A stretch of DNA of 62,014 bases from Lachnospiraceae bacterium (GTDB lineage: Bacteria > Bacillota > Clostridia > Lachnospirales > Lachnospiraceae): NCBI GenBank assembly GCA_017544835.1, contig JAFYDI010000004.1, positions 1 through 62,014 of the forward strand, in the 5' to 3' direction. Shown here in pieces: positions 9,402 through 46,813 of this stretch (its first letter is position 1; every line of letters starts with the position of its first letter). A program made the position numbers and the translations under genes. Under the pieces are notes generated by a model, which worked only from the letters and a program-made list of their open reading frames with translations, was not told the DNA's origin and did no database searches.

Positions 9402-9472
9402 GCAGATATAGTTCATCGGTAGAATGCGAGCTTCCCAAGCTTGAGAGGCGGGTTCGATTCCCGTTATCTGCT
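9402..9472 (+). tRNA. tRNA-Gly (anticodon CCC)
   Basis: A full cloverleaf can be drawn. The acceptor stem GCAGATA (9402-9408) pairs perfectly with TATCTGC (9465-9471). The D stem is GTTC/GAAT. The anticodon stem CGAGC/GCTTG holds the loop TTCCCAA, so positions 34-36 are CCC. The T stem GCGGG/CCCGT has the loop TTCGATT. The discriminator is T, as expected for bacterial glycine tRNA. The 3' CCA is not encoded. CCC reads GGG codons and is usually a secondary glycine tRNA. No terminator is seen before the kinase gene that starts 49 bp downstream. Confidence 0.93.
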
Positions 9473-40803: not shown

Positions 40804-40846
40804 GGCGAAGAAAAACCGTTTTTACGGTTTTTCTTCGCCACTTTTT
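40804..40846 (+). terminator. strong intrinsic terminator
   Basis: A perfect 15-bp stem GGCGAAGAAAAACCG / CGGTTTTTCTTCGCC with a 6-nt loop is followed by ACTTTTT. Confidence 0.92.
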
Positions 40847-40886
40847 ATATAGCTACGAGCTAAGCGACTGCTGTTGCTGTCGGTTT

Positions 40887-40923
40887 GGCGAAGATATAGA
40901 ACATTTCTCGAAAAATCTTCGCC
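40887..40923. repeat. second inverted repeat with GGCGAAGAT arms
   Basis: GGCGAAGAT (40887-40895) and ATCTTCGCC (40915-40923) are perfect 9-bp arms around 19 nt. The arms reuse the GGCGAAGA sequence of the terminator 80 bp upstream, so arms of the two hairpins could cross-pair. Confidence 0.7.
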
Positions 40924-41010
40924 GGGGTGAGACTGCGTGACCTGCCTAAGCATTGTTAAAGAAGCAAAAGAACAATATTAGAGTCGCAATAAGCCGAATC
41001 ATACTTAAAT

Positions 41011-41351
41011 AGCTATAAAAGTAAAGAAAATGTTGTGGCTTTTAGCCGTTTATTTGCCGGTGAAGAAGACAGAGTAATAACAGGGGAGAAAAGGTGGCAA
41101 ATTATAGCCGCAAAGGATGTAAGAAAGCGAGTAACGGCTATAAAAACAGTGCTTTTTCGGCCGAACAGAGAGTTTTAAAGAGGCATAGGCTATAAAAGGA
41201 GTAAAACCATATATACTTTATAGCTTTCAAAGAAATGGCAAAAGAAATTTGGCTATAAAAAGAGGAATAGCAAAGATTATTATTGCTGAGCATGAACAGG
41301 GAGAAGGTTTTTGTACGAAAAAAGAAAGAAAAGAGCACGGAATTATAGCTA
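41011..41351. repeat. gene-free region with an array of GGCTATAAAA-like motifs
   Basis: The 683-bp gap 40771-41453 holds no convincing gene. Seven copies of a 10-base motif close to GGCTATAAAA occur: plus strand at 41011, 41136, 41188 and 41251; minus strand at 41101-41110, 41217-41226 and 41342-41351. A related palindrome GGCTTTTAGCC lies at 41037-41047. Spacing is irregular (29-91 bp), which speaks against a CRISPR or simple tandem array. Function unknown: possibilities are clustered binding sites or the remnant of a repeat element. Confidence 0.55.
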
Positions 41352-45849: not shown

Positions 45850-46077
45850 ATGCCAAATCCTGCAGACATCATGAAACTTATGGGGATGAAGAATAAATTT
45901 GAATCATCCCATCCGAAATTTGTATCATTCATCAAGGACGTAGCCTCCCATGGCATCACCGAAGGCGACATCCTTGAAGTAACCATAACCCGCCCCACCG
46001 GCGAGAAAACCACCGCCAACCTTCGCGTCACCGCCGACGATGTTGAAATGGTTCAAGACCTCAAGAACCTCCGCTGA
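45850..46077 (+). CDS. small unknown protein, 75 residues
   Basis: A short soluble protein I do not recognise. It begins MPNPADIMKLMGMKNKFE and ends with DVEMVQDLKNLR. The central stretch (GITEGDILEVTITRPTGEK) predicts beta strands between an N-terminal helix and a C-terminal helix. GGAG lies 7 bp before the ATG, and the gene follows the GGDEF gene by 15 bp, so it may be co-expressed. The composition is ordinary for this genome and codon use matches the neighbours, which supports a real gene. Its stop codon TGA is part of the terminal pairing of the structured element at 46075-46350. Confidence 0.7.
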   Translation: MPNPADIMKLMGMKNKFESSHPKFVSFIKDVASHGITEGDILEVTITRPTGEKTTANLRVTADDVEMVQDLKNLR

Positions 46078-46350
46078 TAATTGGCTGCTTTGACGCGATT
46101 CCTTGAGGGCAAAAGGCTTCCCCCAAAACCCTCTCCCGCTTCAATCTCGCGTAGCGGCCGGCAGACGCTCCGTATAGACTGCGGTCTGCCCTACGCAAAA
46201 AGTGGTGCTTGAGGGACAGCACGACACTTTTTTGCAACTCAAACAATCGTGTTTTCGTGCATAAGCGGCTTAAAATACAGCCGCTAAGCGCCGACGCTGC
46301 GATAGAGTTTTGGCGAAAGCCTTTTGCCCTCAACGAATCGCTGCTTATCA
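46075..46350. ncRNA. candidate structured RNA or small inverted-repeat element
   Basis: A 276-bp block with nested pairing. The outermost is TGATAA (46075-46080) with TTATCA (46345-46350). Next GCGATTC (46095-46101) pairs with GAATCGC (46335-46341), and after one mismatch the 17-base TTGAGGGCAAAAGGCTT (46103-46119) pairs perfectly with 46317-46333. Inside lie three hairpins: 46149-46196 (GCGTAG and GGCAGAC arms around a CGGCC bulge), 46197-46232 (AAAAAGTG and GTGC arms) and 46264-46285 (AGCGGCT arms), plus AGCG-CCGA-CGCT at 46287-46298. No protein-coding frame is credible. Orientation is unknown. It could be a structured RNA or a MITE-like repeat; no transposase is near. It belongs to the 460-bp gap before flgM; 46351-46463 is otherwise AT-rich without clear signals. 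Confidence 0.55.
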
Positions 46351-46463
46351 TATAAGGCGAATGTTTTAACATATACAAGGGCGCAGTTGACGGATTATGT
46401 CGGTTGCAAGGTATGGGAAATAGAAAACTATAGAGAAAAATAAAAATTTTTTTCAAAAAAGAC

Positions 46464-46490
46464 TAAAGTATATAAAAATTCTTCCGATAA
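46464..46490 (+). promoter_or_regulatory. sigma-28 (FliA/SigD) promoter of flgM
   Basis: TAAA (46464-46467) and TCCGATAA (46483-46490) are 15 bp apart, close to the TAAA-N15-GCCGATAT consensus. An A/T-tract block (AAATTTTTTTCAAAAAAG) lies directly upstream and has a near copy before flgL. Confidence 0.8.
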
Positions 46491-46537: not shown

Positions 46538-46813
46538 ATGCGTATAGAAGCTTATACACAGGTTCAGCAACTCTATAATTCCGCTAAGGTACAGAAGGAT
46601 GCAAACATAGCTAAGAAAGGACAGACCGACCAGGTTCAGATCTCTTCAATGGGTCTTAACATCCAGGCTGCAAAGGCTGCTGTTAAATCTGCTGAGGACA
46701 TCAGATTTGATAAGGTTAATCCTATTAAGGAAGCTATTGCTAACGGTACCTACAGCGTGAGTGCCGAGTCATTTGCTGACAAATTATTGGAGAAATACGA
46801 GTCATTGCGTTAG
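46538..46813 (+). CDS. flgM: anti-sigma-28 factor FlgM
   Basis: A 91-residue protein with the FlgM signature: TDQVQISSMGLNIQAAKAAV in the middle and VNPIKEAIANGTYSV, then SFADKLLEKY at the C-terminus, the sigma-binding helices. FlgM holds sigma-28 inactive until the hook is complete and FlgM is exported. Being behind a sigma-28 promoter makes a negative feedback loop, as known in other bacteria. AAGGAGGAACTT precedes the ATG. It leads the operon flgM-flgN-flgK-flgK2. Confidence 0.93.
   Translation: MRIEAYTQVQQLYNSAKVQKDANIAKKGQTDQVQISSMGLNIQAAKAAVKSAEDIRFDKVNPIKEAIANGTYSVSAESFADKLLEKYESLR

Follow-up and report, generated by a model that had tools for sequence, protein, structure and literature searches.

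Immediately upstream of flgM in a Lachnospiraceae bacterium lies a block of nested inverted repeats, and this raises the question of whether the block serves flgM, encodes a large structured RNA or is a mobile repeat; the latter two readings had been proposed from the letters alone, without database searches (hereafter the sequence-only reading). We analysed the block within the whole stretch of DNA that contains it, 62,014 nucleotides of contig JAFYDI010000004.1 (hereafter the window). The repeats at 46075..46350 lie exactly where the sequence-only reading had placed them: Perfect arms of 17 bp (46103-46119 / 46317-46333) are extended by 7 bp (46095-46101 / 46335-46341) and by a distal 6-bp arm pair at 46075..46080 on the left and 46345..46350 on the right. 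A repeat search returned a single arm pair of 41 nt with 88% complementarity (46095-46135 / 46301-46341). For the stretch 46060-46360 the predicted folding energy amounts to -118.1 kcal/mol (z -5.84) when the plus strand is folded and to -144.6 kcal/mol (z -9.41) for the minus strand, and none of 100 dinucleotide shuffles folded equally well on either strand.

With regard to its neighbourhood, the element is flanked by plus-strand genes on both sides. To its left, an ORF of 75 aa without a Pfam match (45850..46077, plus strand) follows the gene for a GGDEF protein, and the first three bases of the distal arm are the stop codon of this ORF. To its right, flgM (PF04316 by Pfam; 46538..46813, plus strand) is followed by flgN. 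At a distance of 114 bp from the end of the element and upstream of flgM lies the sigma-28-like box TAAA-N15-TCCGATAA (46464..46490, plus strand). The flgM site differs among relatives: G015 carries a window-like element. In G007 the outer arms are those of G015 but enclose another inner module, and a second hairpin module, ‘block A’, stands in a separate stem (L099, L100). G012 and G006 (L101, L102; 74% identity over the aligned flgM-flgN stretch) have no element at all and instead a short terminator-like hairpin together with a matching promoter box. From this comparison it follows that flgM occurs without the element and that the interior of the element varies between species at one and the same site. 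Does the element then control flgM in cis, as a leader or attenuator? The upstream position is the sole point in favour of this assignment, and we rejected it as very unlikely indeed, because the putative promoter box lies 3′ of the element, two relatives possess flgM and the box without the element, and unrelated genes adjoin the other copies.

The element is multicopy and mostly intergenic. The genome of the window contains five copies of a 223-nt core, the one in the window included (46107..46329; GGGCAAAAG ... CTTTTGCCC on the minus strand), with 92-100% identity, as well as one diverged relative (L006). Matches to the core at E <= 0.001 were obtained for 6 of the 18 genomes of the genus, in three cases a single short one; G007 yields 14 matches and G015 yields 23, several of which are located at contig ends. 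In a tree of the cores 13 of the 16 inner branches are unresolved, and the copies are not grouped by genome. Beyond the core, the sequence of the arms differs from copy to copy, yet they are mostly still complementary; in the window this applies to the part of the right outer arm (46301..46341) that extends beyond the core, opposite the left outer arm (46095..46135). The calculated duplex energy of the outer flanks averages -25.6 for true partners versus -17.1 (sd 5.3) when the two partner strands belong to different copies. The copies also bear on a mechanism suggested by the sequence-only reading, in which the loop of the inner hairpin (TTGAGGGACA, 46209-46218) competes for the 3′ strand of the outer arm. 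This idea fails, because the loop lies in the shared core but the TTGA of the outer arm is peculiar to the window copy and differs, for example, in L002, L009 and L027.

Some copies are accompanied by additional sequence. Block A, a second conserved module of ~100 nt, stands in its own variable stem 5′ of the core in L002, L003, L004, L020 and L100, and in L003 an additional outer 39-bp repeat encloses both core and block A. In L041, L048 and L049 (from G007 and G015), runs of the short hairpin repeat TTATCCCAAT...ATTGGGATAA directly adjoin a 3′ part of the core; they form a different repeat family, which is possibly a recombination partner.

How far does the family extend? Divergent relatives with a shorter form were reached via the inner motif. 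A pattern that combines P4 with the GNRA hairpin (both described below) occurs in 15 of 250 genomes of the window's family, and a reversed control pattern in none. The covariance model R1 (125 positions) was built from 29 of 31 sequences, with L067 and L076 omitted; its calibration was short and its E-values are rough. R1 finds 40 strong full-length matches in 61 sources. When whole genomes were scanned with a limit of E <= 1e-4, 122 of the 250 genomes sampled from the window's family were positive, in 121 of 249 genera; 14 candidates were scored per genome, many genomes reach at least 14, and some of the 122 are weak and near the limit. The repeat is consequently not a lone chance occurrence. 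Across a phylum sample with eight candidates scored each, 5 of 398 genomes are positive, four of them from the same family (the window's own genome included) and one from another. A pattern scan of a named genome collection retrieved at least 119 stretches, and among the matches listed R1 recognizes 61 of 80 named stretches and 28 of 39 others. Of the 19 named loci without an R1 match, 18 bear names outside Clostridia (e.g., Brevundimonas, Sphingomonas, Hymenobacter), as expected of chance pattern matches. One R1-positive locus (L169) stems from a MAG labelled Muribaculaceae. Judging by the names in this collection, the window's family is Lachnospiraceae.

The window copy itself matches R1 at positions 37-70 alone (21.4 bits), because ~100 nt are inserted inside P3. 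By comparison, this extra domain occupies 46158..46258 on the minus strand, where it separates P5 from the 3′ strand of P3, and is missing in short family members. The ortholog of the window copy, L009, aligns with R1 positions 1-125 at 30.9 bits, skipping 103 nt at this place, and full-length matches of 29-35 bits are obtained for L009, L006, L026 and L027. The 223-nt core is a long form of the wider family.

A plasmid or phage origin was considered and rejected. Plasmids gave no match, and none of 21 viral-contig loci caught by the pattern holds R1, so these are chance matches. The sole phage-labelled record (MT839508.1, L255) is an UNVERIFIED, unannotated 4.2-kb faecal scaffold labelled Bacteriophage sp. 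with one 38-bp match; it does contain a full element (608-731, 97.3 bits), and is probably a bacterial scaffold. A search of the whole window against Rfam 15 returned a single match at gathering, a tRNA at 9402-9472; around the element there was none at E up to 5, ten loci with relatives yielded no family, and other Rfam scans gave at best matches far below gathering. The Rfam comparison proposed from the sequence alone thus provides no family for the element, and a keyword literature search, covering top-ranked results and openly readable text, found no description of it. The element is a real, widespread structured repeat that is unlisted as far as searched: Roughly every second genome sampled from a major bacterial family of gut and rumen carries this intricate, strand-biased repeat, for which Rfam has no match.

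We examined which parts of the fold are conserved. The fold of the family, for which the wobble bias discussed below suggests the minus strand of the window copy as the functional strand, combines an outer stem that varies between members with an internal loop, P2, a three-way junction that bears a GNRA-capped hairpin, and the conserved rod of P4/P5. In the window copy the 5′ foot of the stem carries AGCAGCG, a CAG motif (46339..46345), and its 3′ foot CGCGTC, a CGTC-type motif (46092..46097). The P4/P5 hairpin (CGTCGGCGCTTAGCGG...CCGCTTATGC, 46259..46296), the part that matches R1, shows the highest conservation within the wider family; the 3′ strand of P3 (CCGCTACGCGAG) was assigned to 46146..46157 from the sequence and from comparison with relatives; and the tetraloop-capped hairpin AAGC-GGGA-GAG occupies 46131..46141, all on the minus strand. 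This hairpin beside P2 has a GNRA cap in all 85 aligned relatives, in six spellings; R and A were imposed on the rows found by pattern, but not on the first relatives or on second copies found by the model. P5 contains GA/AG-like positions that are Watson-Crick in other rows, and the internal motifs are much more conserved than the stems.

Over these 85 rows, 85.8% of the cells of the structure are paired versus 60.7% after shuffling, double-change cells number 956 versus 284, and the covariation score amounts to 0.609 versus 0.167. On any of five measures, none of 500 shuffles reached the observed value, and sliding the partner by 1-3 columns abolishes the covariation signal. Fitting of the alignment to the model favours covariation, and the rows are related, so that the shuffles overstate the contrast; L117 and L147, which are 97.7% identical over 885 bp, are both contained in this set as well as in the pair and flank-motif sets described below. 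A comparison of the arms of 20 copies was made without any model. In the 32 pairs nearest the inside of the core it comprises 536 Watson-Crick pairs and 58 mismatches, and at the same positions wobble pairs are formed by the minus strand only in 43 cases and by the plus strand only in 3; the 20 copies include four with diverging ends and the chimeric L017, which contributes 9 of the 43. For the wider family, GU outnumbers AC in the outer helix by 42 to 13. Since a double-stranded palindrome perfected by copying would show no such bias, the minus strand was presumably selected as a folded single strand; a single strand of the element seems to be under selection. GT wobble is tolerated in DNA hairpins too, and for this reason the bias fits RNA and single-stranded DNA alike.

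The structured-RNA reading offered from the sequence alone is therefore borne out in part, inasmuch as the fold is kept by massive compensatory change and with a strand bias. That the element belongs to an amplified class of trans-acting or cellular structured RNAs, transcribed here from the minus strand, for example a protein-binding RNA with a GNRA hairpin, would accord with the strand-biased wobble pairs, with the invariant GNRA cap and the GA/AG-like positions of P5, and with internal motifs that are far more conserved than the stems. The GNRA cap is, however, compatible with DNA, given the very stable DNA mini-hairpin GCGAAAGC; matches per genome range from 0 to at least 14; the orientation of the element relative to genes is near random (see below), and in the window plus-strand genes stand on both sides. 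Taken together, we consider such an RNA class unlikely. If the element is RNA, a large class has been overlooked.

A different doubt concerns the origin of the covariation. In five orthologous pairs comprising 164 base pairs, pairing was kept through 14 double and 6 single changes and was broken by a single change in 14 cases and by a double change in 4. Several of the 14 kept double changes are adjacent, as in L001/L009, where four neighbouring pairs differ. This suggests that the arms are also rewritten in blocks, as by template switching, and such blockwise changes at orthologous sites complicate covariation searches. Extremely long near-perfect arms were seen in L065 (1408-1670) and L072 (1417-1637). 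One could go further and suppose that the covariation arises mainly because template switching corrects long palindromes, and that the fold has no function: The adjacent multi-pair replacement in L001/L009 fits this, as do very long near-perfect arms (71 nt at 93% in L072, 82 nt at 96% in L065), but neither the 43:3 wobble bias toward one strand nor the conserved internal motifs are predicted by it, and we deem it quite improbable. A further idea, that the element duplicates host target DNA in inverted form when it inserts, had been raised by L020 and L027, where one arm seemed to be host sequence. It was dropped, because by three-way comparison alleles with a single arm may equally be deletion derivatives.

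We then turned to the behaviour of the element in genomes. Among 103 elements with an ORF on both sides, the gene on the 5′ side has the same direction in 58 and the opposite direction in 45 cases, and the gene on the 3′ side in 56 and 47, respectively; this near-random orientation indicates that there is no consistent cis-regulatory position. The set consists of 113 matches picked by hand away from locus ends, of which a further 9 lie inside an ORF and 1 lacks one neighbour; L123 and L065 in it are one element, and it shows 16 close pairs versus 21 in the pair set. The latter comprises 157 matches in 120 loci, namely 40 strong full-length matches, 81 of 85 matches in named stretches and 36 of 37 in further stretches, with L123 and L163 (which duplicate L065 and L079), two weak matches in L145 and an antisense one in L220 omitted. 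Elements less than 450 bp apart form 21 divergent, 2 tandem (one triplet) and 0 convergent pairs; at 450-1500 bp there are 7 divergent and 1 convergent pairs, and beyond 1500 bp 4 and 1 tandem pairs and 1 divergent pair. The gaps within close pairs contain no long ORF, and four wider gaps contain an ORF of 194-392 aa. One locus, L076 (1472-1997), holds three tandem copies within ~530 bp, unlike the usual divergent pairs.

Presence and absence vary at orthologous sites, at the flgM site (L101/L102) and elsewhere. When G000, G007 and G015 are compared, a site may carry the element, lack it or retain remnants, and for the congeners of G025 none of 28 fetched stretches matching its flanks contains the element, the orthologous site not being proven in each. 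Some ‘empty’ alleles keep remnants of the element (L053, L018, L020), so that some of these alleles are deletion derivatives. At the sites in G000, G007 and G015 no clean case of target duplication was found, ancestral-empty and deletion alleles being indistinguishable there.

The flanks themselves carry recurrent motifs. Among 117 matches with full flanks, CGTC is found in the 45-nt 3′ flank of 43 versus 16 after shuffling, and 26 of these 43 have it just 2-3 nt beyond the model; CCAG is found in the 5′ flank of 40 versus 17. In close pairs the side with the CGTC motif faces outward. This is reminiscent of the CGTC-tagged REPs, which are palindromes of 20-40 bp with stems of 8-9 bp and loops of 4-5 nt, occur mostly as dimers, chiefly of the HH type, and are known from five phyla without Firmicutes, with no transposase found (PMC3733652). 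REP/BIME and CGTC REPs share with the element that they are intergenic palindromes forming inverted dimers with a tag at the foot of the stem, and GT pairs as in the arms of the element are noted for GTAG REPs (PMC3733652). A tag at the stem foot is present in the window copy. We therefore weighed whether the element is a relative or member of the CGTC-tagged super-family, enlarged by loop insertions, a possibility that overlaps with the mobile-repeat reading. The excess of CGTC and CCAG would fit, as would the outward-facing motifs, which correspond to the HH dimers, and a type for which no transposase is described there either (PMC3733652). The element is nevertheless several times larger, with ~100 to several hundred nt, long-range nested stems and a three-way junction with its GNRA hairpin; it does not conform to the palindrome, stem and loop sizes of the known REPs, its hosts lie outside the phyla named there, and 74 of 117 elements lack CGTC in the searched stretch. 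Membership in this super-family thus seems doubtful to us.

MITEs are small, non-coding, dispersed and foldback, and all four attributes apply to the element as well. The MITE-like reading made from the sequence alone consequently stands with regard to a dispersed multicopy repeat. It does not stand with regard to constant terminal inverted repeats, as the arm sequences differ among copies; furthermore, neither a parent transposon nor a clean target duplication was found.

Because a non-autonomous repeat depends on a partner, we looked for a mover. Of 18 element-rich genomes, 9 lack the Y1 transposase (PF01797), and 9 of 12 genomes without an R1 match possess it, the genomes being hand-chosen from the R1 family scan, and none of 30 fetched transposase loci contains the element. 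On these grounds a RAYT/REPIN partnership was rejected. Among the proteins encoded next to the element, with clusters named by eye, none recurs so as to suggest a mover. If the element is mobile, the element-rich genomes without a Y1 transposase match make the search for its mover concrete.

Among known systems, the mobile and repeat sequence candidates of intergenic surveys are the nearest kind, along with the tagged REPs (PMC11109978, PMC8632094, PMC3733652). One such candidate, MRSC-65-2, resembles the element in being a multicopy structured motif with inconsistent gene orientation and strong covariation for which RNA or DNA is left open; it consists of one long stem with a UYCCGG repeat and occurs in diverse phyla, whereas the element has a three-way junction and is nearly confined to one family (PMC11109978). 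That survey counts 250 MRSCs in all (PMC11109978). For their part, bcr1 and other Firmicutes stem-loop repeats are multicopy, structured, interspersed and ~150 nt long, with a Bcr1 model of 167 nt, and the element differs in arms that are hypervariable but paired and in its family-wide spread (PMC2267715).

In our judgement the element belongs, with a probability of roughly two in three, to the palindromic mobile or repeat elements that are non-autonomous, and would be an unusually large and elaborate version of them, akin to REP and MITE foldback elements; the odds that we attach to the rival readings overlap. According to this mobile-repeat reading, the minus strand would fold as a single strand, either as ssDNA during replication or as RNA, and a trans-acting recombinase or reverse-transcription machinery would recognize the folded strand and insert it beside gene ends. 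The arms would then diverge freely while selection on the fold maintains their complementarity, probably assisted by template switching, which we propose because adjacent pairs change together between orthologous sites. Copies exist as single units or as divergent pairs, with stem modules that differ among copies and among species at one site. Some of them may be ancient and owe their place to vertical descent, and a dedicated cellular RNA with many paralogues retains some probability. Tentatively, we also envisage a bolder form of this scheme: a family-wide selfish folded single strand, RNA or ssDNA, moved by a machinery outside the known bacterial transposon types, with hypervariable stems that are renewed by arm-to-arm copying during its own insertion or replication and a hairpin tip that is exchanged like a cassette.

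At the flgM site, the element would under the mobile-repeat reading probably have replaced an ordinary terminator between the operon of the GGDEF protein and the 75-aa ORF on the one hand and flgM on the other. The plus-strand transcript, which would still form a very strong hairpin, probably insulates both units as a by-product; regulation of flgM by the element remains unlikely, since the sigma-28-like box intervenes and two relatives possess flgM without the element. Further upstream in the window, the stretch 40804-41265 contains a perfect hairpin of 16 bp along with GGCTATAAAA repeated three times at intervals, within a long stretch that is unlike the matching places in G007 and G015.
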